Source of the DNA: an uncultured Bacteroidales bacterium | Lineage (GTDB): Bacteria > Bacteroidota > Bacteroidia > Bacteroidales > Bacteroidaceae | Length of the DNA stretch: 44,389 nt | Reading direction: 5' to 3' | Assembly: GCA_902798705.1 (NCBI GenBank) | Contig: CADBXS010000005.1 | Span: 1-44,389, forward strand | Shown here: positions 5,477 to 35,579 of the stretch, piece after piece | Numbering within the stretch: the stretch's first letter is position 1 | How the letters are laid out: the number at the start of each line of letters is the position of its first letter | Position numbers and translations under genes: made by a program | The notes under the pieces: generated by a model | The model's database searches: none | What the model was told of the DNA's origin: nothing | What the model saw: the letters and a program-made list of their open reading frames with translations, nothing else

Positions 5477-6032
5477 ATTTGATTTACTGATTGAAGATTT
5501 ACAATTTACGAATTATCGACAGATTCCATCATCCCATAATATTCGGCAAAATAAACGAAAAAATTTTGCTTGACAAAATAATTCTCAATTTTAATACATG
5601 ATGGAACAAATGGTATCATCAAATATCAAACATTTAGAATCTTCTCATCATCACCATTATTACTCCGAATTTCATGTGAATTCAATCATGCGCATATATA
5701 AAATATGAAAAATGAAATAGGGGAATTAGTAATATGCTATTGGGGAATGAAAAAGATGCAAAAAAGGAATAAAAACTACGGAATAGGGACTATTAAAATC
5801 GGATAAAAGTTCATCAAAAGATTTTTAAAGGTTCATTTCAGAAATTTTGAACGTTCATTTATATTTTTTTGAACGTTCGATTTAATATTTTTGAACGTTC
5901 AAAAATTTTGAAATGAAGGTTCAAAAAATTTATATTGAAGGTTCAATAGATTTTTGAATCCCCAATAGAACAAATGAAAAAGCGAAATGAAGATGTTTGA
6001 AATAGCCTGTGAAAAATGAAAAGGTCCTCTAT
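5477..6032. other. AT-rich intergenic region of about 550 bp holding a 22-bp repeat array
   Basis: The gap lies between two minus-strand genes. It is very AT-rich and has no convincing gene. Its right half (5805-5944) is the 22-bp tandem array described separately. The first part (5490-5520) has short near-repeats of 'atttac' and otherwise nothing I recognise. No promoter of the TAnnTTTG type is evident for the DjlA-like gene. Confidence 0.6.
5805..5944. repeat. 22-bp-period array 1 (seven units, core GAACGTTC)
   Basis: Eight-base cores start at 5805 (aaaagttc), 5827 (aaaggttc), 5849, 5871 and 5893 (all gaacgttc), 5915 and 5937 (both gaaggttc), each exactly 22 bp from the last. The three middle cores are perfect palindromes. 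The linkers are AT-rich and variable. The flanking units are mirror-related ('ggttcatttca' on the left, 'tgaaatgaaggttc' on the right), so the array as a whole is also a long imperfect palindrome. Function unknown. Confidence 0.85.
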
Positions 6033-6962
6033 TTAGGTGATGTGATAAAGCCTTCCTTGATAGGTGTTTCGCTCCTCCAATCGCTTGTTAACCTTTTCCA
6101 CAAATTCATAGTTCTTCAGTCCCCAACCAGGTATGGCAAGGAGGGAAGAAGGGGATTGGGAAACAAATCTTTCAACAATGATTTCTGGACGGATAAGTTC
6201 AAGGAAATCAATTACTTCATCAATATATTCAAAGGATTGATACAGGTGAAAATGTTCGGGATGTTCAGCATATTCATCTGCCATTTTTGTTCCCTTAATC
6301 AACTGAAGCTGGTGGATTTTCAGCGTGTCGAGAGGAAGGGAAGAAATTCGTTTTGCTTCATTTGAGAGATACTGGGGAATGGTGTGCGTGAGGGGTAAGC
6401 CAAGAATGATGTGACCTCCTGTGAGAATACCTCGTTCATGTGTTTCCTCAATAGCCTGACGCGTGCAAGCGAAGTTGTGTCCTCGGTTGATGTGCCGAAG
6501 AATTGAGTCGTCAGTAGATTCGATGCCATATTCCACGGTGAGGAAACACTGACGGTTCAGTTCTGCCAGATAATTTAGCAGTGGCTCGGGCATACAATCG
6601 GGTCGCGTACCAATGACAATGCCCACCACGCCTTCCACAGATAAGGCCTCCTCATATTTACGTTTCAAGTCGTCGAGAGAAGCATACGTATTCGTATAGG
6701 CTTGAAAATAAGCCAAATACTTCATCGAAGGATATTTACGAGAGAAGAAAGTCTTTCCTTCCGCCAACTGCTGCGCAATGGATTTCGACGTTTCACAATA
6801 GGCAGGGTTGAAAGTCTGGTTATTGCAATAGGTGCAGCCCCCTACCCCGACTGTTCCGTCACGATTGGGACAGGTGAAACCCGCATTGATAGATATTTTT
6901 TGAGTTTTCTGACCTATTTTGCCAAAAAGCCATGGTCCATATTCCCTATATCGATGGTTCAT
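6033..6962 (-). CDS. Radical SAM protein of the YhcC family (TIGR01212)
   Basis: A 309-residue protein. 'FTCPNRDGTVGVGGCTYCNN' near residues 29-48 supplies the three cysteines that bind the 4Fe-4S cluster of radical SAM enzymes, with the wide spacing typical of the TIGR01212/YhcC group. Further family signatures are 'AYFQAYTNTYA', 'GTRPDCM', 'VEYGIESTDDSILRHINRGH' and 'GGHIILGLP'. The physiological substrate of YhcC-type proteins is not established. The gene is divergent from rplM and has its own -7 element at 6991-6998. Confidence 0.88.
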   Translation of the reverse strand: MNHRYREYGPWLFGKIGQKTQKISINAGFTCPNRDGTVGVGGCTYCNNQTFNPAYCETSKSIAQQLAEGKTFFSRKYPSMKYLAYFQAYTNTYASLDDLKRKYEEALSVEGVVGIVIGTRPDCMPEPLLNYLAELNRQCFLTVEYGIESTDDSILRHINRGHNFACTRQAIEETHERGILTGGHIILGLPLTHTIPQYLSNEAKRISSLPLDTLKIHQLQLIKGTKMADEYAEHPEHFHLYQSFEYIDEVIDFLELIRPEIIVERFVSQSPSSLLAIPGWGLKNYEFVEKVNKRLEERNTYQGRLYHIT

Positions 6963-6990
6963 GTGAGCAAAAAATGTAATATTGACATTG

Positions 6991-6998
6991 CAAAATTA
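6991..6998 (-). promoter_or_regulatory. Bacteroidetes -7 element for the radical SAM gene
   Basis: TAATTTTG on the minus strand, about 30 bp before the start codon and back to back with the rplM promoter. Confidence 0.5.
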
Positions 6999-7039
6999 AG
7001 GTTTTTCGTGGTTTTAAATATAAAATTTAAGATTTTTTA

Positions 7040-7070
7040 TTGTCTTTCAAGAAAAAATTACCTACCTTTG
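7040..7070 (+). promoter_or_regulatory. Promoter of the rplM ribosomal operon
   Basis: TTG at 7040-7042 and TACCTTTG at 7063-7070 fit the Bacteroidetes -33/-7 consensus with a 20-nt spacer. Transcription would start near 7075, about 150 nt before rplM. Confidence 0.75.
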
Positions 7071-7075
7071 CACTC

Positions 7076-7223
7076 GAAATATGCGCGCCCCCGAAGCGTG
7101 CGTATGGATTTAGTGTGTGAATAGTGTCTCCTATTAGCCGGGAACATGGTTCGTGAATCACTGAAAGATGCAATTAAAGACAAAACAAAATTAGTAACAA
7201 CAAAAAAAGAATTCTAAGAAGTA
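7076..7223 (+). promoter_or_regulatory. Structured 5' leader of rplM
   Basis: About 150 nt of untranslated leader. It opens with a hairpin pairing 7081-7088 (ATGCGCGC) with 7098-7105 (GTGCGTAT), eight pairs including two G-U, right at the predicted transcript start. The 3' part is A-rich. Ribosomal operons are often autoregulated through such leaders; that role here is inferred, and I do not match it to a named RNA family. Confidence 0.45.
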
Positions 7224-7685
7224 ATGAACACTTTAAGTTTCAGCACTCACTTCGCAACAAAGGAAGAGGCACAGAAAGAATGGGTGGTCGTTGATGCCAC
7301 AGACCAGGTTGTTGGTCGCCTCGCTTCAAAGGTTGCAAAGATTTTGCGTGGTAAGTATAAGCCATGCTTCACCCCTAATCAGGACTGTGGTGATAATGTG
7401 ATTATTATCAATGCAGACAAGATTCAGTTCACAGGTGCTAAGTGGACAGACAAGCAGTATCTCACCTACTCAGGTTATCCAAGTGGTCAGCACAAGATCA
7501 ATCCTGAGAACCTTGCTAAGAAGCCTCATGGCTATGAGCGCATTCTCCGCCATGCTGTGAAAGGTATGCTTCCAAAAGGCCGCCTCGGTTCGAAGATTCT
7601 CAAGAACCTCTACATTTATGAGGGTGCAGAGCACGAACAGCAGGCTCAGAGTCCAAAGTCAATTGATATTAACGCTCTTAAATAA
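7224..7685 (+). CDS. rplM: 50S ribosomal protein L13
   Basis: A 153-residue protein of the usual length for the order. Family signatures include 'WVVVDATDQVVGRLASKVAK', 'LRGKYKPCFTPNQDCGD', 'VIIINADKIQFTG' and 'GMLPKGRLG'. It binds 23S rRNA early in large-subunit assembly. It is first in the cluster rplM-rpsI, 14 bp before rpsI, the pairing seen in most bacteria. The start at 7224 gives a short N-terminal extension before the conserved core, which is usual for Bacteroidetes L13. Confidence 0.97.
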   Translation: MNTLSFSTHFATKEEAQKEWVVVDATDQVVGRLASKVAKILRGKYKPCFTPNQDCGDNVIIINADKIQFTGAKWTDKQYLTYSGYPSGQHKINPENLAKKPHGYERILRHAVKGMLPKGRLGSKILKNLYIYEGAEHEQQAQSPKSIDINALK

Positions 7686-7699
7686 TAATAAGGTATAGC

Positions 7700-8086
7700 A
7701 TGGAAGTAATTAATGCATTGGGTCGCCGCAAGAGCGCTGTTGCCCGCGTATATCTCACAGAAGGTTCTGGTAAGATTACTATCAATAAGAGAGATCTCAA
7801 AGAATATTTCCCATCTGAACTCGTTCAGTATGTTGTTAAGCAGCCGCTGAACCTTCTCAACGTTGCTGAGAAGTATGACATCAAGGTGAACCTCTACGGT
7901 GGCGGTTACACTGGTCAGAGCCAGGCTCTCCGCCTCGCTATTGCCCGCGCACTCGTAAAGATTAATGCTGATGACAAGAAGGCTCTTCGCGCAGAAGGCT
8001 TCATGACTCGCGACTCACGTGCTGTAGAACGTAAGAAGCCAGGTCAGCCAAAGGCACGCCGCAAGTTCCAGTTCAGTAAGCGTTAA
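7700..8086 (+). CDS. rpsI: 30S ribosomal protein S9
   Basis: A 128-residue protein. It starts 'MEVINALGRRKSAVARVYLT' and ends in the invariant basic tail 'KARRKFQFSKR', whose final Lys-Arg reaches the ribosomal P site. 'GGGYTGQSQALRLAIARAL' is the central family motif. It is co-transcribed with rplM just upstream. Confidence 0.97.
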   Translation: MEVINALGRRKSAVARVYLTEGSGKITINKRDLKEYFPSELVQYVVKQPLNLLNVAEKYDIKVNLYGGGYTGQSQALRLAIARALVKINADDKKALRAEGFMTRDSRAVERKKPGQPKARRKFQFSKR

Positions 8087-8216
8087 TATTTATTTGGTAA
8101 CTCATAAAGATTATCGTTTAGTATCTAAACTGAGAAGATTTCTCACCGTATGGGAACTACTCCTCGGTTGGGTTTTCAAAAATCAAGAAACTTACAAAAG
8201 AAAGTAAACAAAAATT
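8087..8216 (+). promoter_or_regulatory. Structured spacer or leader before rpsB
   Basis: Two perfect six-pair triloop hairpins lie back to back: 8116-8130 (GTTTAG-tat-CTAAAC) and 8131-8145 (TGAGAA-gat-TTCTCA). A third possible stem pairs ACCG at 8145-8148 with CGGT at 8165-8168. No TAnnTTTG element is clear, so rpsB is probably read from the rplM promoter through this RNA. An S2-binding autoregulatory site or attenuator is plausible but inferred. Confidence 0.5.
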
Positions 8217-9092
8217 ATGTCAAGAACATCATTTGACGCCCTGCTCGCAGCAGGTGCACATTTCGGTCACCTCAAAAGAAAGTGGAATCCAGCTATGGCT
8301 CCTTATATCTTCATGGAGCGCAATGGTATCCACATCATCGACCTCAACAAGACAGTTGCTAAAGTTGATCAGGCAGCTGAAGCACTCAAGCAAATTGCAA
8401 AGAGTGGAAAGAGAATTCTCTTCGTTGCTACTAAGAAGCAGGCTAAGGACATCGTAGCAGAGAAAGCTACATCAGTGAATATGCCATACGTTATTGAACG
8501 TTGGCCAGGTGGTATGCTCACCAACTTCCCAACCATTCGCAAGGCTGTGAAGAAGATGGCAAACATCGACAAGTTGATTGCAGACGGAACTTACGACAAG
8601 CTCTCAAAGCGTGAGAATCTTCAGATTCGTCGTAAGCGCGAAAAGCTCGAGAAGAACCTCGGTTCTATCGCTGACTTGACTCGCCTTCCTTCCGCTCTCT
8701 TCGTTGTTGACGTACTCAAGGAGAACATCGCAGTTCGCGAAGCTAACCGTCTCGGTATTCCTGTATTCGCTATCGTTGATACGAACTCTGACCCAGACAA
8801 CATCGACTTCGTTATCCCAGCAAACGACGATTCCACAAAGGCTGTTGAAGTAATCCTCGACGCTTGCTGCAAGGCTATCAACGAAGGTCTTGAGGAGCGT
8901 AAGGCAGAGAAGATTGACATGGAAGCTGCCGGCGAAGGTGAAGAAGAGAACGAGGAAAAGGTTGAAAAGCCTGCTCGCAAGCGTTCAACTCGTGCTCGTG
9001 CTGAGAAGAAGGAAGAAGCTGCTGTAGCTGAAGAAGAAGCTCCTGCTGCTGAAGCAGAAAAGGCTGAACCAGAAGCACATGAAGCTGAATAA
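8217..9092 (+). CDS. rpsB: 30S ribosomal protein S2
   Basis: A 291-residue protein. It has the S2 signatures 'LLAAGAHFGHLKRKWNPAM', 'YIFMERNGIHIIDLNKT', 'RWPGGMLTNFPTIRK' and 'LFVVDVLKENIAVREANRL'. The globular part ends near residue 232. The rest is a low-complexity Ala/Glu/Lys tail ('EEEAPAAEAEKAEPEAHEAE'), longer than in E. coli S2 (about 240 aa) but common in Bacteroidetes. S2 joins the small subunit late, next to S1. tsf follows, as in nearly all bacteria. Confidence 0.97.
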   Translation: MSRTSFDALLAAGAHFGHLKRKWNPAMAPYIFMERNGIHIIDLNKTVAKVDQAAEALKQIAKSGKRILFVATKKQAKDIVAEKATSVNMPYVIERWPGGMLTNFPTIRKAVKKMANIDKLIADGTYDKLSKRENLQIRRKREKLEKNLGSIADLTRLPSALFVVDVLKENIAVREANRLGIPVFAIVDTNSDPDNIDFVIPANDDSTKAVEVILDACCKAINEGLEERKAEKIDMEAAGEGEEENEEKVEKPARKRSTRARAEKKEEAAVAEEEAPAAEAEKAEPEAHEAE

Positions 9093-9134
9093 GCTTTATT
9101 TCAAAAAATAGAACAATTAACTAAACTAAGGAAA

Positions 9135-9166
9135 GGAGCGTTGACACACGCTGTGATTGACGCTCC
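9135..9166 (+). promoter_or_regulatory. Hairpin between rpsB and tsf
   Basis: Seven perfect pairs, GGAGCGT (9135-9141) with ACGCTCC (9160-9166), closing an 18-nt loop. No U-tract follows, so it looks like an attenuator or processing site that could tune EF-Ts relative to S2, not a full terminator. Confidence 0.5.
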
Positions 9167-9192
9167 ACCCTCTCAAAACATAATAAAACATT

Positions 9193-10185
9193 ATGGCAAT
9201 TACATTACAAGAAATCAATGCACTTCGTCAGAAGACACAAGCAGGACTCATGGACTGCAAGAAGGCTCTTACAGAAGCAAACGGTGACATGGAAGCTGCT
9301 ATGGAAATCCTTCGCAAGAAGGGTCAGCTCGTTGCAGCAAAGCGTTCCGACCGTGAAGCTTCTGAAGGTTGCGTTCTTGCAAAGGTTGATGGTAAGTTCG
9401 GTGCTATGATCGCTCTCAAGTGCGAAACAGACTTCGTTGCAAAGAATGCTGACTTTGTTGCTCTTGCAAACAAAATCATCGACGCTGCAATCGCAGCAAG
9501 AGCGAAGACTCTCGACGAAGTAAAGAACCTCGACATCGACGGTGTTCCTGCTGCTGAAGCTGTTGTCAACCGTTCAGGTGTTACGGGTGAAAAGATGGAA
9601 CTTGATGGCTACGCTACAGTTGAAGGTGAAAAGGTGGTTGCTTACAATCACATGAGCCAGAGCTTCCTCTGCACACTCGTTGCATTCAACAAGGACACTT
9701 CTGATGAAGTAGCTAAGGGCGTTGCTATGCAGGCTGCAGCTATGGCTCCTCTCTACCTCGACGAGGCAGGTGTTACAGAAGAGACCAAGGCTAAGGAATT
9801 GGCAAGCATCATTGACAAGACCAAGGAAGACGAAGTGAAGAAGGCAATCGAAATTGCTCTCAAGAAGGCTGGAATCAACCCTAATCTCGTTGATAGCGAA
9901 GACCACATTGCTTCCAACACCACTAAGGGCTACATCACAGCAGAAGAAGGCGAAAAGGCAAAGGAAATCATCGCTTCTGCAGGTGAGGCTGCTCGTCAGA
10001 ACCTCAATGAAAAGAAGATTGAAATGATTGCTCAGGGTCGTCTGAACAAGTATTTCAAGGAGGTTTGTCTGCTTGACCAAGCATACATCGACGACAACAA
10101 GATTTCTGTTGCAGACTTCCTCAAGAAGGCTGACAAGGACTTGACTGTTGTTGATTTCAAGCGTTACACACTCCGCGCAGAGTAA
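9193..10185 (+). CDS. tsf: Translation elongation factor Ts
   Basis: A 330-residue protein. EF-Ts is the nucleotide-exchange factor that reloads EF-Tu with GTP. The N-terminal UBA-like domain includes 'LRQKTQAGLMDCKKALTEAN' and 'AMEILRKKG'. The core has the 'MIALKCETDFVAKNADF' motif that contacts EF-Tu. It is longer than the 283-aa E. coli protein because of inserts in the core, as is normal in Bacteroidetes. It is the last gene of the ribosomal cluster. Confidence 0.96.
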   Translation: MAITLQEINALRQKTQAGLMDCKKALTEANGDMEAAMEILRKKGQLVAAKRSDREASEGCVLAKVDGKFGAMIALKCETDFVAKNADFVALANKIIDAAIAARAKTLDEVKNLDIDGVPAAEAVVNRSGVTGEKMELDGYATVEGEKVVAYNHMSQSFLCTLVAFNKDTSDEVAKGVAMQAAAMAPLYLDEAGVTEETKAKELASIIDKTKEDEVKKAIEIALKKAGINPNLVDSEDHIASNTTKGYITAEEGEKAKEIIASAGEAARQNLNEKKIEMIAQGRLNKYFKEVCLLDQAYIDDNKISVADFLKKADKDLTVVDFKRYTLRAE

Positions 10186-10258
10186 AAACTAACCGACTCT
10201 CGCCGTTAAGGACAGCGCACTTAATGAAAGAAAAATACCAAATCATGATTAACCCTTT

Positions 10259-10292
10259 TGAAAGTTAAAATAGCGCTGGTTTTTAACTTTCA
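10259..10292 (+). terminator. Stem-loop between tsf and the OmpA-like gene
   Basis: TGAAAGTTAAAA (10259-10270) pairs with TTTTAACTTTCA (10281-10292) across a short loop. It may terminate the ribosomal operon or form part of the leader of the next gene. The U-run is inside the stem instead of after it, so the terminator reading is uncertain. Confidence 0.45.
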
Positions 10293-10318
10293 TGGGGTTA
10301 TATTAAGAAACACAAAAT

Positions 10319-12133
10319 ATGAGAAGAAAGATTTCAAGTTTATTGCTTCTGGGCATTCTGGCCTGCGCCAATGTTTCTGCTCAAGAAAACACGCAATGGG
10401 TTAAGGTAGATCGCTCTCAACTTCCTGAGTCTGTCTTAGCTGAAGAAATTACTTTTCCTCAACCAACAGACGACAAATATCGCGTTGTAACGAATCGTTT
10501 CTGGGAAAACTGGTTCATTTATGCCGATGCGGGTGGTCACGCTTTCTTTGGAGACTATAGTCACTGGGGAAAGTTCAAGGAGACTCTCTCTCCAGAATTT
10601 GCAGTTGGTATCGGTAAGTGGTTCACTCCAGGTATTGGTGTAAAGGCACAGTTTGGCATGGGTTCATCAAGAGGTTTCTTGAATGACAGCTATGTTTTCA
10701 CTTCAAACTATGGCTACCTTCATAACCCTTATCTTGACACGCATGTAGGCAACTACCCTCAACAGCACAATGGTTACAACTATTGGCCAATGAAGACCAA
10801 GTTCTGGGATGTGAGCATGAATGTATCGTTCAATCTCTCTCGTCTCTTCTGTGCTTGGGAAGACTATGGAACCAAGAAGTTGTTCAACCAGTTTATCTTC
10901 ACTCTCGGTTTTGGTGGTCTTCATCACTACGACTTTGATAAGGATAAGTTTGGTCCAGAGAACGACTGGTACATGAATGCAGAATTGCAGTATAGCCGCT
11001 TCTTCACAAGAGCCAAGGCTTTCTCACTTGACGTCAAAATTCGTTCTCAGATTTTTGAGACTCACTTCGACCAGTCCTTCATTCAGGATCATCGTTGGGA
11101 TGCCAATCTCGGTGTTGCATTCGGTTTGACTTATTACATCAAGGTTCGTGGTTGGGATCGTTGTGTATCTTGCGGCGAAGCAAACTACTACATTCCAGCT
11201 CCTCCTGTAAACGATTGTCCTGAATACAAGACTTTCACATTCTACGTGTTCTATCCAAACAACTACTCTGGACGTGACGATGCTCCAACTATTGCAGGTG
11301 ACGAAGTCAACGCTATCGACTACCTCGCAGGTGGTATCTTCACTCAGAAGAAGTTTGCGAATACGAATGCTGCCGGTTCAAGCCTCGGTTCAACAGCTAA
11401 GTTGCGCAGACAGGCAACAGAAGACATTGCCACAGAGAAAGCAACATTTGGTGGAAACCAGATTGTTACTCGTGGTTATGAAATTTCTAACGAGCCTATC
11501 TCGCTCAGCATGAGCGAAAGCGAACTCAAGGCGTTCAAGGATAAGTATGGTTACTATTATGCACCAATCTACGAGGGCAACAACACTTGGTACTATCGTG
11601 TGGATGACGTAACAGCAACTCAGAAGCTCCTTAGCGACGACAACTACAAGGAAAGTGAATCTTACTCTCTGAATGCTCATGCAGGTCTTGGCACAATTCG
11701 TCAGAACATGCCAATCGACAAGAACAGCGACCTCTACAGCTTCGCAGATGTATATGCTGCTCTAGAAGGCAACAACGGTTACATCAGCAAGTATGCAGAT
11801 GCACAGAGTGTTGCAGCTATCAAGGAAATCCTCGAAAGTGGTACAATCCTCAGCGTTCAGGCTGAAGGTCTTGCTACAAGTCAGGACAACAACAAGGAGA
11901 ATGAAGTTGGTATCCAGCGTAACAACACACTCTCTTTCAATCGTGCTCTCACAGCTACCAAGTGGTTGCAAGGAAGTGGCAAGTTCAACGGCGTAAATTC
12001 TGACGCTTTTGTTGTTAACTCCTTGAATGCTCCTATCGGTCAGGTAAATGACAAGAGCACACGCGGCTTAAATGCCAAGTTGAACCGTTGCGCTCGTATC
12101 AAGATTAGCTACCTGATTAACAGCAAAAAGTAA
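10319..12133 (+). CDS. OmpA-like outer-membrane protein
   Basis: A 604-residue exported protein. The signal peptide is 'MRRKISSLLLLGILACANVSA' with cleavage before QEN. Residues about 60-290 read as an outer-membrane beta-barrel, rich in alternating aromatic strands ('WFIYADAGGHAFFGDYS', 'AVGIGKWFTPGIGVKAQFGM', 'FIFTLGFGGLHHYDF'). The C-terminal ~100 residues resemble a diverged OmpA peptidoglycan-binding domain: 'EGLATSQDNNKENEVGIQRN', 'LSFNRALTATKWLQ' and 'RCARIKISYLI'. The region between is Ser/Thr/Tyr-rich and unassigned. Prevotella genomes carry such OmpA-like porins as major surface proteins. It ends at a strong terminator. Confidence 0.75.
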   Translation: MRRKISSLLLLGILACANVSAQENTQWVKVDRSQLPESVLAEEITFPQPTDDKYRVVTNRFWENWFIYADAGGHAFFGDYSHWGKFKETLSPEFAVGIGKWFTPGIGVKAQFGMGSSRGFLNDSYVFTSNYGYLHNPYLDTHVGNYPQQHNGYNYWPMKTKFWDVSMNVSFNLSRLFCAWEDYGTKKLFNQFIFTLGFGGLHHYDFDKDKFGPENDWYMNAELQYSRFFTRAKAFSLDVKIRSQIFETHFDQSFIQDHRWDANLGVAFGLTYYIKVRGWDRCVSCGEANYYIPAPPVNDCPEYKTFTFYVFYPNNYSGRDDAPTIAGDEVNAIDYLAGGIFTQKKFANTNAAGSSLGSTAKLRRQATEDIATEKATFGGNQIVTRGYEISNEPISLSMSESELKAFKDKYGYYYAPIYEGNNTWYYRVDDVTATQKLLSDDNYKESESYSLNAHAGLGTIRQNMPIDKNSDLYSFADVYAALEGNNGYISKYADAQSVAAIKEILESGTILSVQAEGLATSQDNNKENEVGIQRNNTLSFNRALTATKWLQGSGKFNGVNSDAFVVNSLNAPIGQVNDKSTRGLNAKLNRCARIKISYLINSKK

Positions 12134-12157
12134 TTCGGTTTAGAACTTTTTGACCAT

Positions 12158-16488: not shown

Positions 16489-16552
16489 AAACGAGCGCTC
16501 GTTTTGATGAAAACGGGCGCTCATTTTTGTTAAAACGGGCGCCCGTTTTTTC
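16489..16552. repeat. 22-bp-period array 2 (three units, GC-rich palindromic core)
   Basis: Cores GAGCGCTC (16493), GGGCGCTC (16515) and GGGCGCCC (16537) are each exactly 22 bp apart, each preceded by AAAAC and followed by a T-run. The first and third are perfect palindromes including their A/T flanks (AAAACGAGCGCTCGTTTT, 16488-16505 approx.). The array starts about 25 bp after the cca stop codon, so one unit could also act as a terminator. Confidence 0.85.
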
Positions 16553-16838
16553 TCTACATCCCCATACTTTGGAAAACAGGAAAGTTAATGAAGGTTCGTT
16601 AAGCTTGTAATGAACGTTATTGATTCCATAATAGAATGTCATTTTGAAATCATAGTAACATTCAAGGCGATGGTTAGAAAGAACTAACGTGCTTTTCTCA
16701 ATAGGCGATTGTCATCCTATCAAGTCAGAATGGCAAACAAGGCACTCAATTCGAGATATATCTTAGGCCTAATGTTAAATTTCGTTTTTGCCCATCATTT
16801 TATTGCAAAAACATTTGGAAGAAACATAGCTTTGTGTA

Positions 16839-18067: not shown

Positions 18068-18131
18068 CACGCAGAAATCGCAGAGATACGCAGGAATACA
18101 GAATTTCCGCTATTTCTGCGATTTCTGCGTG
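18068..18131. repeat. Inverted-repeat element with 17-bp perfect arms
   Basis: CACGCAGAAATCGCAGA (18068-18084) is the exact reverse complement of 18115-18131. The left arm also shows a ~10-bp internal periodicity (cgcaga/cgcaga/cgcagg). The ACGCAGAAA core is shared with the element at 40665-40827. It could end the SPFH operon, but it looks like a dispersed intergenic repeat. Confidence 0.75.
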
Positions 18132-28157: not shown

Positions 28158-29966
28158 TTATCTATTTAGAATCTTCGTAGCAACCTGTTTGCCATTGCTC
28201 AAGGTGTTGATGCGAATCAGCACACCTTCGTAATTGTCAGGGTGAGCGATTTCCATACCAGAAAGGGTGTAGAAGCGTGAGCTGAGCACTGCTGCATGGT
28301 CGTCAGCAGTAATTGTACTGATGCCAGTTGGGTCCACAAACGTTGGATAATACTCTTCCACTGCAGAGACGGCATTGAGGTTCTGTGCCTTGGCTATTTG
28401 CTCTACAATGCTGTTGAGATACACCTCAAGGTTCGTGTAGTACTTCTTAGCATCAAGCGTGTAGGTTTTACCATCGGCAGCACTATTCGGATTCAATCCA
28501 TTAGCCTTTTCCCATTCATCAGGCATTCCGTCGTTATCTGAATCGTAGCCCGCAGGACGAGTATTGGATACCAATTCTGGGAAGGATGGCAGAGCTGAAT
28601 TTGGTGTTTTCGAAGGGTCGTTGATGAGGTCGATGAGTCCTTTCTTAGGTTTTTCTGATTCTGTACCAGTGTAGGTAGCAGTTCCGTTTTTCACTTCATT
28701 CATATAACGCTCATCCACGGCATCGCGATAGAGTGAAGCTCCTGCGTATGCCATCACCTGTGTGTAAGCAATCTGAGCCGTATGGGTTGTCACATCTCCC
28801 GTAGGACATGGTTCATCGACCTTAATGGACACACAATCTACGTCTTTCGTATTCTTCACGTAAGTAACGCCACTGCCATAATAATGGTTTGGATCCTTGC
28901 TGTATTTCTGACCATTGATTGTGAAAACATCTGAATCGTATGAAACGCCCTTCCAGTCGTAATTGGCTGCATTCGAGCCTGCCGCAGTGACATAATTGCC
29001 ATTGATGTAGTAGCGACTTGTCAATCCAATCAGTTCTGATGAAGTGGAATTGCCACTGGCACCCACAGAAACTTGAGTCACTCGTGTGTCGTTAGTACGT
29101 GCAGGACCTGCCTTATAGTAGTTGTTGACGATGTTGATGTATCCACCACCTGGGCCTCCGTAGCATCCCGAGTTGCAGTTATAGATGATACAGTTGCGGA
29201 AATCCACATTCTCTGCCTGCACGGCATTCTCCCATTTGTAAGTGGAATAATAGGCATTGCTCTTGTAGATGTCTTTCATATAACGAGCACCATTGAAACG
29301 AGGAGAACGGTTCGAAACATGGGTAATCAGATTGTGATGGAAACTGGCAAGCTTACCGCCCCAAATGCCGCCATAGCCATGCGCACCTTTTCCATGGCCT
29401 GCGTTGTTCAGACTTTCGCCTAACGTACACCATTGAAGCGAGAAGCAGTTCATGTCGTAGAACGAAGCCACCTCATCGATACTCCAACTGAAGGAGCAGT
29501 GGTCGAGTATCTGGTTGTTGTATTCGCGTGTCCAAATGGCATCAGCTCCGTCATTTACATCCTTCACCTGACTGCGGCGACTGCGAATATAGCGAATGAT
29601 GATATTGTTTCCATTAGGTCGCACCGTGAAATAGCGAAGCGTAATACCAGGTTCAGGTGCCGTCTGTCCTGCAATGGTGGTGTTTTCCCGAATGACGAGG
29701 TCTGCCACCAAGTCGATATAGCCACTCACATCAAACACAATCGTACGAGGAGCAGCCTGCTTCAAGCACCAACGGAGAGAGCCCTTTGTATTGCCACTGG
29801 CATCATCAGCAAGCGTAGTGACATGATACACATTTCCTCCACGTCCACCTGTCGTAGTATATCGAGCATGTCCTTCAGCTCCAGGGAAAGCAGGAGCTTG
29901 AGCACTTAAATGAAGAGCGAAGAACGAAGAATGAAGAATAAAGAATGATATTAAAATTTTATTCAT
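28158..29966 (-). CDS. PL1-family pectate lyase, secreted
   Basis: A 602-residue protein. The signal peptide 'MNKILISFFILHSSFFALHL' is followed by SAQA. The parallel beta-helix lyase domain begins 'FPGAEGHARYTTTGGRGGNV' and 'GSLRWCLKQAAPRTIVFDVS', and continues with 'NNIIIRYIRSRRSQVKDVND', 'DHCSFSWSIDEV', 'FHHNLITHVSNRSPRFNG' and 'DFRNCIIYNCNSGCYGGPGG', as in subfamily 2 of PL1. Around residue 475 is a calcium-loop-like 'DSDNDGMPDEWEKANGLNP'. The C-terminal 'YTLSGMEIAHPDNYEGVLIR' and following Lys-rich end resemble a secretion-sorting tail. It cleaves polygalacturonate by beta-elimination, making substrate for GH105. It lies ~100 bp after the GH28-GH105 fusion gene in the same direction. Confidence 0.9.
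   Translation of the reverse strand: MNKILISFFILHSSFFALHLSAQAPAFPGAEGHARYTTTGGRGGNVYHVTTLADDASGNTKGSLRWCLKQAAPRTIVFDVSGYIDLVADLVIRENTTIAGQTAPEPGITLRYFTVRPNGNNIIIRYIRSRRSQVKDVNDGADAIWTREYNNQILDHCSFSWSIDEVASFYDMNCFSLQWCTLGESLNNAGHGKGAHGYGGIWGGKLASFHHNLITHVSNRSPRFNGARYMKDIYKSNAYYSTYKWENAVQAENVDFRNCIIYNCNSGCYGGPGGGYINIVNNYYKAGPARTNDTRVTQVSVGASGNSTSSELIGLTSRYYINGNYVTAAGSNAANYDWKGVSYDSDVFTINGQKYSKDPNHYYGSGVTYVKNTKDVDCVSIKVDEPCPTGDVTTHTAQIAYTQVMAYAGASLYRDAVDERYMNEVKNGTATYTGTESEKPKKGLIDLINDPSKTPNSALPSFPELVSNTRPAGYDSDNDGMPDEWEKANGLNPNSAADGKTYTLDAKKYYTNLEVYLNSIVEQIAKAQNLNAVSAVEEYYPTFVDPTGISTITADDHAAVLSSRFYTLSGMEIAHPDNYEGVLIRINTLSNGKQVATKILNR
29903..29950. repeat. Simple GAA/TTC repeat inside the pectate lyase signal sequence
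   Basis: The plus strand runs 'gaagagcgaagaacgaag' and continues as 'aatgaagaataaagaatg', a degenerate ~7-bp repeat of the 'attcttc' kind. It encodes the 'ILHSSFFALHLS' part of the signal peptide. Confidence 0.6.
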
Positions 29967-30029
29967 TTTTTAGTTTTTGAGTTTTTATGTTTTTGAGTTT
30001 TTGAGTTGAAAGTCTAATGTCAAAGGTCA

Positions 30030-30066: not shown

Positions 30067-30069
30067 TTA

Positions 30070-32517
30070 TTAGAATTCAATGCCCTTGTTCGGATCCACC
30101 TTCTCAGTGGTTAGATCCTTTTGCAGATTCATTTCAGGGAACATACGTTCCATTTCGAGACTTGCCCATATGAAAGGGCCAATGCCTTTGGCATCATTAT
30201 CACGAATGGCTTCGCTCATGTAGTATTCGAAACTGCCATCGCGCTTTGGATTCGATTCAGGACCGAGACCCGAAACCGAGCAGCAGTTGGTAAGACTGAT
30301 GGTGGCATCTTCGTTCACCTTGATGAATTCATTGATGATGCCCTTGTAAGCCTTGATGCCAGCTTGTTTCAAATCCTCGCCCACATAACCGAGGCGTGCA
30401 GCCTTGAGCAGACAATAGGCAAACATGCTGGAAGCAGTGGATTCCAAATAGTTTTCCTTGCGGTCCTTCACATCCATCACATCGTACCACACACCCGTCT
30501 TCTCGTCCTGATAAGCAACAGTGGCTTTCAGTACCTTATTTAATATGTCTATCAACTGCTGACGCTTTGCATAGCTTTCAGGCAATGCGTCAATCACTTC
30601 CACGAGCGCCATCGCAAACCAACCCTGAGCACGGCTCCAAGTATGTTGTGACAAGCCTGTCTCCTTGTTAGCCCAGAAGATGCTGTGAGTTTCATCCCAA
30701 GCATGCTTCCACAGATTCGTCTTTGCATCGTATGTGCGGAAGTCGGTGCGCGAAATCTGCTTCACGGCATCGTCATACACCTTCTTCGTCTTCTTGTTCA
30801 GATAAGGAGCAGCATGGGTGTAGAACGGCAGTCCCATGAAGATGCCATCGAGCCAAACCTGCTTCTTGTAGATAGCCTTATGCCACCACACACCCTCTTT
30901 CGTGCGAGGCTGCTTTTCCAACTGTCGGAACAGTGTCTGCAATGCCTTTAGATTCTTGTCCTCAGGGAAGAGCTGTTGCCAACGAAGCACAAACTTACCC
31001 GTGCGGATGTTGTCGAGGTTGAAGTCCTCAAGCTTGTAGTTCTTGATGTTGCCATCGGCTTCAATCATCTCTTCGCAGTATTCCTTCAGATACTGACGAA
31101 TGGACTCGTCCTTATAAGTGAGATAGGTGTCGAGCATACCTTCCATCTCTATTCCCATCACATAGCTCCACTTAGGTTTCTTAGCAAAGTCGAGCATGTA
31201 AGGGTGGCTCACGCGAGCCATTTCAGAATGCGTCATCCATTCGCTATAGTGGGCGTATGGAATCTTGTCGAGCACCACCTTGCCATTCACGTAGAACTTG
31301 TTGAAATGCAAGTCGCGAACCCTACCCGTTCGATAAACCGCTTGCTTCTGCACACCGTTCCATCGGCAGTTGTTCACATGGATGTTATACACATTCTCCA
31401 TTGAATCGAGTGCCACAATCATCACGCCGTATTCGCTCTTCTCGCAGGTCACGTTGTCCATATACACGTTGCGAACCGTAGGATAGAAACCACGGCAGCA
31501 CACCTCCTTTGGCTCATAATCGAGATTGATTTTCAGCACCGACTCCTGACACTGCCCTACTTTCACATTGCGGAAATATACGTCCTCGATGATGCCACCT
31601 CGGCAACTGTTCGTCTTGATGCGAAGTACGCGCTCCAAATTAGGACTATCCATCGTACAGTTTTCCCAGTCATCGCCCGTATGGAAGGTGCAGCCCTCAA
31701 TCAGCACATTCTCGCACGATTCAGGGTCGCAACCATCACCGTTAGGACCTTCGTTCCATATCTTCACGTTCTTCACGGTGATATTCTTCGAAAGCAATGG
31801 ATGAATCACCCAGAATGGTGATCGAAGCATCGTCACTCCCTCAATGAGGATGTTCTCGCACTGGTTGATATTCACCAGCTGAGGACGTAAGCCCTGTCCT
31901 TTGCCATAACGGCGCTCATCCATAGGCACGCCATCCTCTCCCTGCTGCAACAATCGCGCACGGCTTCCCAAATCCTGACGCTCCTTTACGGCATCCACAG
32001 GAGGGAACTTCCTCTTTCCGCTCATTGCCCACCATGTCTCGCGAGTGGCAGCACCGTCGATGGTACCCTCACCCGTGATGCCTACGTTTTTCTCCTTATA
32101 GGCATAAATGCAAGGCTGATAGTTCCAGCAGTCGAGTCCTTCCCAACGAGTGGGAACCAATGGATAGAGATTTGTGTCGAAAGCAAAAAGAAGCGTGGCA
32201 TCCTTTTCAATCACAAGGTTCACATTCGACTTCAGTGTGATGGCACCGGTATTCCATTTGCCGGCAGGTACCACCACCCTACCACCTCCAGCTTTCGAGC
32301 AAGCGGCAATCGCCTTGTTGATAGCAGTCTGGTTCTGACGTGCCGAAGCCGTCGTCTTAGCTCCATACTTCGTGATGAGGAAACTGCGATTAGCGAATTC
32401 GGGAGCTTTGATGTTCTGTTCAATCAGTTTGTAATCTGTATCCCAAACACCTGCGCTTAGATTCATCACCGCCATCGTCCATAGCAGCAGCAATGAAAGA
32501 ATACTCTTTTTGGTCAT
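30070..32517 (-). CDS. GH28-GH105 fusion protein with an internal deletion in the GH28 domain
   Basis: An 815-residue protein from the Met at 32515-32517, which begins the signal peptide 'MTKKSILSLLLLWTMAVMNL'. An upstream in-frame ATG (32631) is rejected because a -7 promoter lies between. Residues ~25-420 are GH28, with 'NEGPNGDGCDPESC' (255-268) and 'FHTGDD' (278-283). There the sequence jumps straight to 'WENCTMDSPNLERVLRIKTN' (284-303). Compared with the GH28 at 13378-14799, about 50 residues are missing, including the catalytic GHG. Residues ~440-800 are GH105, with 'QVWLDGIFMGLPFYT' and 'HTWSRAQGWFAMALVEVI'. GH28-GH105 fusions normally cut galacturonan and trim unsaturated ends in one protein. 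Here the GH28 half is probably inactive while the GH105 half looks intact. Confidence 0.88.
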   Translation of the reverse strand: MTKKSILSLLLLWTMAVMNLSAGVWDTDYKLIEQNIKAPEFANRSFLITKYGAKTTASARQNQTAINKAIAACSKAGGGRVVVPAGKWNTGAITLKSNVNLVIEKDATLLFAFDTNLYPLVPTRWEGLDCWNYQPCIYAYKEKNVGITGEGTIDGAATRETWWAMSGKRKFPPVDAVKERQDLGSRARLLQQGEDGVPMDERRYGKGQGLRPQLVNINQCENILIEGVTMLRSPFWVIHPLLSKNITVKNVKIWNEGPNGDGCDPESCENVLIEGCTFHTGDDWENCTMDSPNLERVLRIKTNSCRGGIIEDVYFRNVKVGQCQESVLKINLDYEPKEVCCRGFYPTVRNVYMDNVTCEKSEYGVMIVALDSMENVYNIHVNNCRWNGVQKQAVYRTGRVRDLHFNKFYVNGKVVLDKIPYAHYSEWMTHSEMARVSHPYMLDFAKKPKWSYVMGIEMEGMLDTYLTYKDESIRQYLKEYCEEMIEADGNIKNYKLEDFNLDNIRTGKFVLRWQQLFPEDKNLKALQTLFRQLEKQPRTKEGVWWHKAIYKKQVWLDGIFMGLPFYTHAAPYLNKKTKKVYDDAVKQISRTDFRTYDAKTNLWKHAWDETHSIFWANKETGLSQHTWSRAQGWFAMALVEVIDALPESYAKRQQLIDILNKVLKATVAYQDEKTGVWYDVMDVKDRKENYLESTASSMFAYCLLKAARLGYVGEDLKQAGIKAYKGIINEFIKVNEDATISLTNCCSVSGLGPESNPKRDGSFEYYMSEAIRDNDAKGIGPFIWASLEMERMFPEMNLQKDLTTEKVDPNKGIEF

Positions 32518-32575
32518 AGTTAGTGATATGTTTTTAGTAAGTTTCTTATCTATATATAGCATCACATAGATTTTG

Positions 32576-32583
32576 CAAAGATA
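32576..32583 (-). promoter_or_regulatory. -7 element for the GH28-GH105 gene
   Basis: TATCTTTG on the minus strand, 58 bp before the chosen start codon. It decides against the longer open frame that starts at 32631. Confidence 0.65.
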
Positions 32584-32676
32584 AAAAACAAAATCCACAA
32601 ATGCCGTGTGAATCAGCAAAAAATACATCAATCAGCAAAAGAAAACCCCATGAACCCTCAAAAAGGACAAAATATT

Positions 32677-32706
32677 TTGTGTGGAAAAAATAAACAAGTA
32701 AATTTG
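32677..32706 (+). promoter_or_regulatory. Promoter of the secreted protein gene at 32746
   Basis: TTG at 32677-32679 and TAAATTTG at 32699-32706, with a 19-nt spacer. Confidence 0.7.
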
Positions 32707-32745
32707 CAGTTTGAAATTAACTCACATTCAAATCCATAAACAACG

Positions 32746-33648
32746 ATGAAAAAAACATTTCTCACAGCAGCCCTGCTGCTCACCGCCCTCATGGCACAGG
32801 CACAGGCATTCATGAAAGTCACTCCAACCATGAAGGTGGGCGACGTGAAAACCTACACCACCGAATCTAAAATGGTGCAGAAGGACGGAACCAAAACCAC
32901 AAAAACCGATACTCGCTTTTCCGTCATCAAGGAAATGCCCGAAGGATACATCGTCGAAGTGCTGAAAACCCAACCCGACGACAAGAAGTCTGCCGATGCA
33001 CTCGAGCGCCTGCAAAACATCCAATCCGAAATCTACTACAACCAGCCTATCCGCCTCGTCGTCAACAAGGAAGGACAGCCTGTAGGCATTGCCAGCTTCC
33101 CACAGCTCAAGCAGATGCTTGTGCAGAAATTCGGATTCATCCTCAACGACCTCTACAACGAGAAGCCTGAGTTAGCACAACAGGCACCAAAGGACACACT
33201 CCTCAACCGCTTTGCTGAAGCCCTTGAAGTGGACGACATCCTGGAGGATTTCATACAACCAGGAGATGTCATGTGCCTCAACGGAAAGACCATCGTCATC
33301 GGCTTCCAGGAAGACTTCGAAATGCAGGGATTGAAGATGAAGCGCACACTCATGCCAGCAGGCGGCGGCAAGAGCGTCATGGAAATGCTCACGTCCAACA
33401 TGACTCCCGATGACTTCAAGGCAGTGCTCATGAAGCAGCTCGAAAAAGCTGACGAGGCAACCAAGAAAGAAGCAGAAGCCCAAATCGACCAGGCCATCCA
33501 GAGCGGCCTCCTCAACATGAAAGCTGGTGGAAAAGGCACATACAACTATGGCGACGACTTCTGGCCAACGTCCATCACCCAGGACATCGACATCGAACAA
33601 GCTGGCGAGAAAGTCACCATCAACGAAGTCACCACGCTGAAAAAATAA
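32746..33648 (+). CDS. Secreted protein of unknown function
   Basis: A 300-residue protein with the signal peptide 'MKKTFLTAALLLTALMAQAQ'. The mature part alternates strands and helices: 'VGDVKTYTTESKMVQKDGTK', 'RFSVIKEMPEGYIVEVL' and a long charged helical stretch 'QLEKADEATKKEAEAQIDQA'. It ends 'SITQDIDIEQAGEKVTINEV'. The overall shape recalls periplasmic proteins that measure or bind an envelope component, but I recognise no family. It is divergent from the GH28-GH105 gene and ends at its own terminator. Confidence 0.65.
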   Translation: MKKTFLTAALLLTALMAQAQAFMKVTPTMKVGDVKTYTTESKMVQKDGTKTTKTDTRFSVIKEMPEGYIVEVLKTQPDDKKSADALERLQNIQSEIYYNQPIRLVVNKEGQPVGIASFPQLKQMLVQKFGFILNDLYNEKPELAQQAPKDTLLNRFAEALEVDDILEDFIQPGDVMCLNGKTIVIGFQEDFEMQGLKMKRTLMPAGGGKSVMEMLTSNMTPDDFKAVLMKQLEKADEATKKEAEAQIDQAIQSGLLNMKAGGKGTYNYGDDFWPTSITQDIDIEQAGEKVTINEVTTLKK

Positions 33649-33671
33649 CAACACCACATCCAATAACCTAC

Positions 33672-33703
33672 AAAGGGATGCACCCACCACAGTGCATCCC
33701 TTT
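33672..33703 (+). terminator. Intrinsic terminator
   Basis: AAAGGGATGCAC (33672-33683) pairs perfectly with GTGCATCCCTTT (33692-33703) and runs on into TTCCTTTT. Confidence 0.88.
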
Positions 33704-33884
33704 TTCCTTTTCCGCATAACTCAAAAAAACTCTACGCAATCAAAGGACGATAGAAATAATAAACTCCCTTTCTCCTTTCATTCCGTAGAAACAAAAAAAA
33801 GCTTCTCCCATGATAGTTTTCCACAAAAACAATCCTCTTTCAATCTGATATGACCAAGAATCATAACCAATTGAACCAACCACA

Positions 33885-35105
33885 ATGAAAAAATCCACTA
33901 TCGCTTTTATATCGAGTGCGCTCACCCTCCTGCTTGTGGGAGGAGCCGCAGCCGCCTTCTATTTCCTCGGTGCACAAACCGAGGAGAAAGAAGAATTGAA
34001 AGTGGAAGTGAACGAGTATCATTTCCCCGATATACATTTCCGCCAGTGGATACAGGAGCACGTCTCTGGAGCCGCTGACGGCATCCTCACCGGAGAGGAA
34101 ATCGACAGCGTCGAACAAATCGACATCGCTGCACTTGGCATCTCCGACCTCACCGGCATCGGTTACTTCCGCTCTCTCCGCGAACTCCACTGCCAAGGCA
34201 ACCAGCTCACCAAGCTCAACCTCAGCGGCGACTCACTCCTCACCTACCTCGACTGCTCCGACAACGAACTGGCCGAACTCGACCTCATCCACAACCCACA
34301 GCTCGTCAAGCTCAACTGCGCCAGCAACCACCTCCAGTTCCTCGATGTGAACCACAACCCACTGCTCACACATATCAACTGCGCCAACAACTCCATCAAG
34401 TATCTCGATCTCAGCCACAACTACGAGCTGAGCATCCTCATGTGCAACAACAATTACCTCGACTCCATCAACGTGACACAGGCCAAAGGGCTCACAGGAC
34501 TCAACTGCGCCAACAACCAGATGCGCGAAATCGACCTCTTTCAGAACACACGACTCGAAAAGCTCTTCTGCCAGAACAACCAACTCGAGTGGCTCAACCT
34601 CAGCAAGAACTACGCACTCAGCCTACTCGACTGCAGCGAGAACTGCATCACGCGCCTCGACCTCCGTCACAACCATGCCCTCACTAGCCTCCGATGCCAC
34701 AACAACCAGCTCTCTTGGCTCGACCTCAGCCGCAACAAGAAACTGCGCGACAAGGACAACGTCAGCATCGCACAGAAGGAACAGGCAGCGAGAGTGGCAT
34801 CCATCTTCGACCGTGAACTCGGCATCGCCGTCGAGGAGGCATTCGACGGAGCACGCGTCGGCAACCTCAAAGTGGAGCGCGAATCCGACGACTTCTGGGA
34901 CATCTTCGCCAGCTACTTCGGCAGAAGCCGAATCCGCCTCACAGAGATCCATCCCAATGTCACACGAAAGACCGGCGACCCTTTTCTCCTCATCGACTCC
35001 ACCACCGGCGATGCCAACGTCTATAAGGGCAGGAAGATGGAATACGACTACGACACAGGCAACCTCGCTGCGGGAAAGCTGCACGTCAGGATGCGACTCA
35101 TCTGA
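33885..35105 (+). CDS. Membrane-anchored leucine-rich-repeat protein
   Basis: A 406-residue protein with one N-terminal membrane anchor (about 7-29). Residues ~45-100 resemble the cap that precedes such repeats: 'FPDIHFRQWIQEHV', an acidic loop 'DGILTGEEIDSVEQID' and 'ISDLTGIGYFRSLREL'. Then come about nine 21-residue repeats of the pattern LxxLxCxxNxLxxLDLSxNxx, for example 'LTYLDCSDNELAELDLIHNP' and 'LSLLDCSENCITRLDLRHNH'. Such repeats form a solenoid for protein binding. The last ~100 residues are unique. High Cys in each repeat at the same position suggests a buried Cys ladder. The ligand is unknown. Confidence 0.85.
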   Translation: MKKSTIAFISSALTLLLVGGAAAAFYFLGAQTEEKEELKVEVNEYHFPDIHFRQWIQEHVSGAADGILTGEEIDSVEQIDIAALGISDLTGIGYFRSLRELHCQGNQLTKLNLSGDSLLTYLDCSDNELAELDLIHNPQLVKLNCASNHLQFLDVNHNPLLTHINCANNSIKYLDLSHNYELSILMCNNNYLDSINVTQAKGLTGLNCANNQMREIDLFQNTRLEKLFCQNNQLEWLNLSKNYALSLLDCSENCITRLDLRHNHALTSLRCHNNQLSWLDLSRNKKLRDKDNVSIAQKEQAARVASIFDRELGIAVEEAFDGARVGNLKVERESDDFWDIFASYFGRSRIRLTEIHPNVTRKTGDPFLLIDSTTGDANVYKGRKMEYDYDTGNLAAGKLHVRMRLI

Positions 35106-35287
35106 AACCACTGAAAACCCATTATGTTTTTCTTCATTTGTATCTTTTGTGTTGGGCGTTCATTGCTTTGGCAGTGAATGCTCAATGCATTTCGGATAGA
35201 GGACAAATCGTAAACCATTTTTTTTCACAATTAGTGTAGCAACGCAATGCCACAGTTTTTGCGTCTTTGGCTTTGCTTGAAAGTACT

Positions 35288-35419
35288 GTCCCATAGTTAC
35301 TCGAGTGGCGTCCCATAGTTGTATGAGTGCCGTCCCATAGTTGTATGAGTACTGTCCCATAGTTATATGAGTGCCGTCCCAATAGCGCTTGAGTGTTGTC
35401 GAAATGGCGATAATGGGAC
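35288..35419. repeat. 22-bp-period array 3 (five full units and ends, core GTCCCATAG)
   Basis: GTCCCATAG starts at 35288, 35310, 35332 and 35354, GTCCCAATAG at 35376, and a decayed GTCG at 35398, all exactly 22 bp apart. Each unit continues 'tt(a/g)tatgagt' or close to it. The array closes with ATGGGAC (35413-35419), the reverse complement of the core, so the ends are inverted relative to each other. Confidence 0.9.
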
Positions 35420-35491
35420 AAATAAATGCTTTTGATGTAGTGCATGTGGGGATGTACTGAAGCGATACTTTGGTTCAACTAGTTGCCCGAA

Positions 35492-35579
35492 GGCTCGGCA
35501 TCGAATTGGCGAAGGCTCGGCACTGCGATGGCGAGAGTTCGGCGTGTCAACGTTGAGGGCTCGGCATTTCAGTACAATC
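35492..35579. repeat. 22-bp-period array 4 (four units, core GGCTCGGCA)
   Basis: GGCTCGGCA at 35492 and 35514, AGTTCGGCG at 35536, GGCTCGGCA at 35558, each 22 bp apart, with variable 13-bp linkers. The sequence is unrelated to array 3 only 73 bp away. Confidence 0.85.

Follow-up and report, generated by a model that had tools for sequence, protein, structure and literature searches.

The window, meaning the whole stretch of 44,389 nucleotides analyzed here (contig CADBXS010000005.1 of an uncultured Bacteroidales bacterium of the Bacteroidaceae), has intergenic arrays in which short cores recur every 22 bp. These fall into several families, each scattered over many gaps and keeping to the 22-bp pitch. 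There is about an even chance that the units are double-stranded DNA sites for protein dimers, with neighbors predicted to touch. The initial annotation had described four arrays with different cores, exact 22-bp spacing, and a location in gaps of over 400 bp, and all of this holds. The cores start at 5849, 5871, and 5893 for GAACGTTC, where weaker copies extend the array in register over 5805 to 5944; at 16493, 16515, and 16537 for GRGCGCYC; at 35288, 35310, 35332, and 35354 for GTCCCATAG, followed by two weaker ones at 35376 and 35398; and at 35492, 35514, and 35558 for GGCTCGGCA, with a variant at 35536. Every measured distance is 22 bp, and the gaps holding the arrays are 556, 430, and 817 bp long. 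When the window is compared with itself at lag 22, five stretches stand out and none is coding: the four known arrays and a fifth at 5694-5789. Tandem Repeats Finder likewise assigns a period of 22 to the arrays at 5.8, 16.5, and 35.3 kb.

The first matter is whether the period is special. A sequence-blind scan scored each period from 10 to 60 and counted intergenic tandem arrays at its main threshold. Within 813 kb of G000, the assembly holding the window (195 contigs, 3.31 Mb, 82% complete), 28 of 51 arrays have period 22 (21 arrays) or 44 (7 arrays); period 21 has 6, periods 42 and 46 have one each, and periods 20, 23, and 24 have none. That sample has 41 stretches, window included, five of them non-blind picks (the window; contigs C7 and C115, chosen as carriers of GAACGTTC arrays), and without the window and the two picked contigs (698 kb) 20 of 38 arrays are at 22 or 44. 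G020, a complete genome (99% complete) from another genus of the family, chosen for its completeness, gives 30 of 34 arrays at 22 or 44 in 800 kb, and zero at each of 20, 21, 23, and 24. Eighty named loci from Bacteroidales genomes, all around one gene (1.40 Mb), give 19 of 55 (in 16 loci), with 1, 4, 3, and 2 arrays at 20, 21, 23, and 24; stretches of G015, G022, and G034 give 5 of 6 (G047 offered only tiny contigs). Dinucleotide shuffles of the intergenic DNA produce no such arrays in G000 and practically none overall. Hence, the comparison with 20, 21, 23, and 24 bp that the initial annotation called for comes out in favor of its claim that spacing is conserved without conservation of sequence, in the intergenic DNA of G000 and of relatives.

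Outside these genomes the signal fades. Twenty other families of the order (236 kb) have one of 4 arrays at 22 or 44 and two more at 23, a sample of the class (205 kb) has one of 11, and the rest of the phylum (106 kb) and Escherichia coli (250 kb) have zero arrays of any period. The plain match rate at lag 22 stands above that of other lags by 9.3 standard deviations (SD) in G000 and 7.2 SD in G020, echoed at lags 44 and 66, and by 1.6 SD in the order, -0.9 SD in class and phylum (where lag 21 reaches 4.3 SD), and 1.1 SD in E. coli. Because both the scans and the match rates fade in this way, the 22-bp preference is, in these samples, shared by the family and its close relatives but is not general. 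Bacterial intergenic repeats are usually grouped by sequence, and the trait common to these is a distance, invisible to a search based on sequence. Period 14 is the next commonest after 22 in the 80 loci (10 of 55 arrays; for example L093, L101, and L110); these arrays consist of two similar 7-mers such as CATTACC, and in the combined class and phylum sample they make up 7 of 11 arrays, confined to two of 20 stretches (L210 and L219 among them).

The cores of the window are indeed unlike each other, but to call the arrays unrelated, as the initial annotation did, misses that each core recurs at other loci of G000 as a dispersed family. In searches for exact core pairs, with 31 linker lengths permitted for each, G000 has 12 of 12 pairs at 22 bp for GAACGTTC (family B), 12 of 12 for GTCCCATAG, 6 of 6 for ACGGGCGC (family E), and 2 of 2 for AGGCTCGGC (family D). 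GTCCCATAG is a variant of the directional family TCCCCAATAG (family A), the most abundant in G000, which also flanks palindromic arrays. Family B holds the pitch in G002 (11/11) and G011 (15/15); single pairs occur in G005 at 21 and in G020 at 24, and outside the genus there are lone pairs at assorted spacings, matching chance expectation. The genus-wide scan found family D in G000 only, one further GTCCCATAG pair (G006, at 32 bp), and family E pairs in G002 (one at 22, one at 40) and G007 (one at 40). A reversed-pattern control gave 0 matches in G000 in all core searches; elsewhere it gave single matches in G001 and G006 in the family E search, and in the GAACGTTC search one each in G019, G040, G054, and G081 and six in G047. 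Family C, palindrome arrays of GGAAAACTTTTCC with a pitch of 21 (one scored 42), occupies seven loci of the G000 sample, such as L017 12030-12119 and L184 19100-19192.

G020 has its own cores at the same pitch. Its F1 core, AAACANNNNTGTTT, is a 14-bp palindrome with 66 exact pairs in the commonest form, the listed ones lying at 22 bp, or at 44 with an intervening unit. The F2 core, AAGTATNATACTT, a 13-bp palindrome in which the central base is free, has 113 exact pairs, those listed all at 22. The commonest F1 pair was absent from all 60 relatives of G020 that were searched. Because G020 thus has cores of its own at 22 bp, cores turn over between species and the pitch stays. The listed F2 arrays mostly have two to four units; two others, at C1:1443816-1444180 and 589538-589682, have grown, with near-identical linkers, to about 17 and 7 units, and look like ordinary tandem expansion.

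How strictly the distance is kept is best seen within families. Counting the next core within 11-34 bp, the spacing is 22 in 51/51 cases for D, 63/63 for F1, 29/29 for F2, 19/20 for B, and 39/42 for A; the family C pattern picked up just two pairs, spaced 21 and 33. The linkers are 8-14 bp long and partly conserved between loci, and in the families of this test distinct linkers agree at just 42-69% of positions. Linkers this diverged would, if free-running, have gained and lost bases. Because they have been substituted widely and yet show almost no insertions or deletions, we infer that the distance is under selection. In six composite loci of G020, F1 and F2 units alternate in blocks (L131, for example, has F1 on both sides of F2), and all 71 center-to-center distances between F1 and F2 units fall within 0.5 bp of a multiple of 22, these loci being partly alike and so fewer than six independent cases. 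Between G000 and a sister species, alignment gaps at the 5.8-kb and 16.5-kb arrays sum to 22 or 66 bp, which means that entire units are gained and lost; the family E array has two units in the sister locus L045 and three in the window. A polymerase or reverse transcriptase that adds 22-nucleotide units, one of the mechanisms floated by the initial annotation, has no support, given these gaps, the differences between neighboring linkers, and the look of ordinary tandem expansion in the two long F2 arrays.

Different core types also share elements in G000. Directional A-type units border the palindromic B and D blocks and face opposite ways on the two sides, and composite A+D elements recur, with a phase between the A and D arrays that is not constant. 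At C129:2755-3010, GTCCCATAG and GGCTCGGC arrays stand inverted about 203 bp apart, the corresponding distance in the window (35288 to 35492) being 204 bp.

The units themselves are mostly symmetric. Of the 98 arrays with a pitch of 21-23 bp, 65 have a significant dyad (16/36 in G000, 17/29 in the 80 loci, 29/30 in G020, and 3/3 in the order). At 21-24 bp the count is 72/106, versus 11/54 at other periods, with same-family copies counted separately and hence non-independent. Palindromes of 8-14 bp are typical of dimer sites. Seventeen directional G000 arrays disregard the orientation of genes, 10 matching it and 9 opposing it at 3' ends, against 8 and 6 at 5' ends. Dyads, indifference to orientation, half-sites that mostly vary independently, and the linker swaps described below speak for double-stranded DNA sites occupied by cooperating dimers, rather than for RNA hairpins or a 22-nucleotide polymerase, and make a protein binding every two helical turns the best fit of the three mechanisms that the initial annotation had offered. 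A pitch of 21-23 bp would set successive sites on nearly one face of B-form DNA, two turns apart. In a row of dimers each touching its neighbors, protein-protein contact would set the distance, and the sequence of each unit would be set by whichever subunit is mounted there. Proteins would then be the readers of the arrays, with cooperativity setting the pitch, and different core types would be read by different, perhaps paralogous, proteins sharing one packing geometry. If such a cooperative row is real, it would point to an unknown DNA-organizing system in Bacteroidaceae-like bacteria, a dominant group in the gut.

The alternative that survives best, and which we nonetheless consider unlikely, is that these are selfish or neutral dispersed repeats, satellites resembling miniature inverted-repeat transposable elements (MITEs) or repetitive extragenic palindromes (REPs). 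They would be copied by an enzyme and grown by unequal exchange, with an inherited pitch that serves the element and not the cell. This would account for dispersal with related linkers, for orthologous loci that differ by whole units, for the F2 array of about 17 near-identical units, and for arrays that decay at their edges as minisatellites do; the mirrored directional flanks resemble inverted repeats as well. It accounts poorly for different cores in different genera at one pitch, and for cores that stay fixed while linkers drift almost free of indels. Family D also bears on it, with 18 copies in the 813-kb sample, window copy included (the finder required CTAGTTG and at least 3 core-like matches, and thus favored good copies). 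The four CGARNNYTCG units align gap-free in 18/18 copies, the search pattern having fixed the spacing of the first three. Similarity peaks over the four units (0.79-0.84) and reaches the background of 0.38 about 110 bp out on both sides, gradually on the right and with a steeper drop 66-88 bp out on the left, and no common terminus appears among the 18 aligned loci, a further point against this reading. As for an enzyme, the Y1 (TnpA-REP) transposase PF01797 has one match in G002 and none in G000 (itself 82% complete), G011, G005, or G020; other transposase types were not searched.

Several observations weigh against rows of dimers on DNA, which we still prefer. Pitches of 21 (family C) and 23 also occur, and in the 80 loci the plain match rate at lag 21 (5.9 SD) exceeds that at lag 22 (5.2 SD). 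Family A has no dyad, so dimers do not explain every unit. Single-strand folding of the window B and E arrays beats shuffles by far (z -5.5 to -7.4, versus -2.5 and -3.3 for A and -2.4 and -1.0 for D), and the window B array, alone among four B arrays, has pairing-favoring linkers (z -1.9). Some symmetric positions covary: F1 ±2 (z 7.2), D ±10, ±12, and ±13 (z about 3), and B ±5 (z 4.3) and ±10 (z 2.6), although some D units fit the B pattern too and may create the ±5 signal. The covariation test, which had 8 E units only and covered families B, C, D, E, F1, and F2, is blurred because the copies are related, some positions deviating the opposite way (D ±1, ±9, and ±11; F2 ±10 and ±11; F1 ±8 and ±10).

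These last points are what an RNA-level explanation would draw upon, in which tandem hairpins in untranslated regions act as terminators, stabilizers, or protein-binding RNAs and 22 nucleotides make two A-form turns. It could add that the E array lies 30 bp past a stop codon and includes one terminator-like hairpin, and that convergent gaps are somewhat favored in G000 (7/33 arrays versus 13% of gap length) and G020 (6/14 versus 20%), though not in the 80 loci (2/26 versus 14%). We regard it as quite improbable. Strong B and E folding is what arrays of palindromes would give anyway, and hairpins built from cores such as GAACGTTC or AAACAATATTGTTT would be weak. Directional arrays, for their part, lie either way round with respect to genes. 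Outer unit positions prefer complementary bases, mostly without covarying: D ±2 shows all four purine-pyrimidine combinations, a limit set by the search pattern itself, with 34 of 71 paired versus 34.4 expected; D ±7 has 38 paired versus 36.1 and F1 ±9 has 41 versus 40.4; and every family C position has z ≤1.1. When linkers are swapped between loci, the folds are as stable or more so (mean z +0.34 for D over 9 arrays, +0.54 for F1 over 24, +0.57 for F2 over 13, and -0.02 for B over 4). Since swapping does not weaken folding, array pairing looks like a by-product of the dyad cores, and RNA hairpins or a long stem were rejected as the main explanation; the RNA fold with fixed arms of the initial annotation is disfavored. 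Linker complementarity within versus between arrays is 0.40/0.52 for D, 0.42/0.48 for F1, and 0.64/0.71 for F2, lower within in each case, and 0.64/0.57 for B, which has few pairs. An Rfam scan of the window at the gathering score left the arrays unmatched; its sole match is the L13-Bacteroidia ribosomal leader RNA (RF03127) at 7081-7159 on the forward strand, ahead of rplM.

Operator arrays of ordinary transcription factors, controlling adjacent genes, have a slim chance. Dyad cores of 8-14 bp with helical phasing are typical of operators and are what is seen. Divergent, promoter-rich gaps, however, are not favored (4/33 arrays in G000, 7/26 in the 80 loci, and 2/14 in G020, versus 21%, 35%, and 24% of gap length), which argues against local operators, and G020 has dozens of loci per core. 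The genes flanking the window arrays are unremarkable and differ from one another (they encode TerB/DnaJ, radical SAM, poly(A)-polymerase-like, Band 7, LRR, and HU-CCDC81/SPOR proteins), and the flanking proteins that were scanned have no Pfam family in common. Multiple binding sites of a Mu/Tn7-like transposase, an enzyme that recognizes repeats of about 22 bp close to the ends of its element, would suit the pitch and the directional units facing opposite ways across a center, and are nevertheless highly improbable given that most arrays have dyads, that D has no common element terminus, and that no transposase is among the ten window proteins scanned (there was no genome-wide search for such transposases).

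Returning to dimer rows, their job would be chromosome organization or cell-cycle marking and not local gene control, a point on which we are less confident; it is suggested by array loci every 25-45 kb in G000 and G020, by the indifference to promoter-rich gaps, and by depletion of F1 near the likely terminus of G020. Among the matches listed, F1 has 27 loci at 0-1.83 Mb, one at 1.83-2.90 Mb, and two from there to 2.95 Mb; 14 further pairs should, by row order, lie past 2.95 Mb, where sampled stretches do show F1 units. F2 has 17 listed loci at 0-1.83 Mb and 22 at 1.83-2.90 Mb. Over the listed loci of 0-2.90 Mb, 1 of 28 F1 loci versus 22 of 39 F2 loci fall in the 1.83-2.90 Mb zone (Fisher p = 4 × 10−6), a comparison weakened by zone limits set after seeing the data and by its being one complete genome. 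An origin near dnaA was dropped: dnaA (2.947 Mb) is not at a skew flip, and GC skew was used for that reason. The positive skew of sampled stretches turns negative between 2.33 and 2.43 Mb, which is the likely terminus, near the middle of the F1-poor interval; this call, also a weak point, is made from GC skew of sampled stretches alone, with a second flip somewhere in the unsampled 0.2-1.0 Mb and a stretch of the wrong sign at 3.27 Mb. F1 depletion over about 1 Mb around the likely terminus is thus a lead, in one genome, to the marking of chromosome zones, and the F1/F2 difference offers a chance to test such marking beyond the E. coli and Bacillus systems. A bolder extension, which we think doubtful, is a chromosomal ruler: a 22-bp nucleoprotein lattice common to the chromosomes of this bacterial family, whose interchangeable dimer sites would, by type, mark different replication zones (origin side or terminus side) and serve as a positional address for segregation and division, with fast turnover of the addresses between species and the ruler kept. 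Locus spacing in G020 is weakly more regular than random (coefficient of variation 0.78 versus 0.98, p = 0.027) and was not used.

Dispersed arrays of dyad sites are a known kind of thing. One pitch common to many unlike cores across genera did not turn up in searches aimed at repeats in the open-license literature, subscription papers being outside the scope. The nearest published case found is the BrickBuilt MITE of Porphyromonas gingivalis, a 23-nucleotide minisatellite in 19 intergenic copies with a leader and a tail bearing terminal inverted repeats, reported as one sequence family from P. gingivalis and P. gulae (PMC4596501). It resembles the 22-bp arrays in its nearly equal unit length, its intergenic dispersal within one Bacteroidales genome, its units of conserved and variable parts, and its repeat number, which varies between strains (PMC4596501). 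It differs in its unit of 23 nucleotides, versus 22 bp in the four window arrays and most arrays across families; in being one family, versus several at one pitch across genera; and in its fixed inverted ends, versus mirrored and fading flanks with no common terminus in D, the only family aligned. BrickBuilt may be a cousin of the 22-bp arrays.

Other systems share single features. REPs and bacterial interspersed mosaic elements are short dispersed intergenic palindromes mobilized by RAYT transposases. The arrays resemble them in being intergenic, palindromic (except family A), and numerous, with more than one copy per locus, and differ in the fixed 22-bp tandem lattice; membership was rejected on the lack of the Y1 transposase in 4 of the 5 genomes. 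Partition-site and iteron arrays (ParR/parC, for example) are cooperatively bound direct repeats in helical phase, with one locus per replicon near the gene for their own protein, unlike the 22-bp arrays, which are spread over the chromosome. CRISPR arrays have near-identical repeats, unique spacers of about 25-40 bp, and cas genes, and were rejected with linkers of 8-14 bp that are partly conserved between loci; no search was made for cas genes. Intrinsic terminators are G+C stems with a T run behind them, oriented after a gene; the E array has its one hairpin of similar look, and directional arrays point both ways. Nucleoid-occlusion sites, to which those of Noc and SlmA belong, are the targets of proteins that block FtsZ assembly or tether DNA to the membrane. 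Noc sites are 14-bp palindromes, about 70 in number, and SlmA sites number about 24-52, both sparse near the terminus; SlmA occupies its sites as a dimer of dimers, and Noc assembles into large complexes (PMC4726725, PMC3116907). These too are dispersed palindromes of 12-14 bp, tens per chromosome, and F1 is likewise a 14-bp palindrome with a similar depletion around the likely terminus, whereas 22-bp arrays are not described for Noc or SlmA sites in the available parts of those papers (PMC4726725, PMC3116907). The matS site of MatP, located in Ter, is a palindrome of 13 bp whose central base is free (PMC3116907); F2 is built like it and differs in occurring in all listed or sampled parts of the chromosome. 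We claim membership of the 22-bp arrays in none of these systems.

The remaining features of the window are as follows. The degraded array at 5694..5789 (reverse strand, lag-22 score 30/44) has units at about 5720, 5742, 5764, and 5786 with a GGGGAAT-like core, the reverse strand of directional family A, and continues into the family B array at 5805..5944. The latter has seven 22-bp units, the middle three being GAACGTTC, and decays outward through AAAAGTTC, AAAGGTTC, and GAAGGTTC. On its opposite side the family A core recurs inverted as AATCCCCAATAG (5957..5968, forward strand), and A-type cores flank other B loci as well. The family E array at 16493..16550, past the poly(A)-polymerase-like gene, has three palindromic units AACGRGCGCYCGTT and is followed at 16590..16619 by two decayed family B units (GAAGGTTC and GAACGTTA), 22 bp apart; in their place, units more clearly like GAACGTTC stand at the orthologous locus L045. 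The directional family A array at 35288..35419 (forward strand) has four exact and two weak units of the GTCCCATAG variant. Directional flank units GGGGATGTACTGAA...TTTGG (35448..35474, reverse strand), recognized by the consensus of the 18 D loci, lead into the family D element at 35477..35579, which has AACTAGTTG and then four CGARNNYTCG units at 35488, 35510, 35532, and 35554; TTCAGT flank units come at 35568 and 35590.

The next gene downstream of the A and D arrays (35923-36843, forward strand) encodes an HU-CCDC81 double HU domain and a SPOR domain. By its domains, a DNA-binding fold with SPOR would suit tethering of the chromosome to the envelope, and its adjacency may be chance. The radical-SAM protein of the window is 92% identical to that of Prevotellaceae bacterium UBA4361, the nearest named relative found. 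Adjoining short-period arrays of AATGAAG (5.7 copies) and TTTTTGAG (5.2 copies) lie at 29909-30007, at the start of the reading frame 28158-29966. Finally, repeats of 9-11 bp in two gaps, at 18069-18129 and 40708-40767, run as ACGCAGAAAT-like units and then their inverse ATTTCTGCG, possibly a second class of mirrored repeats.

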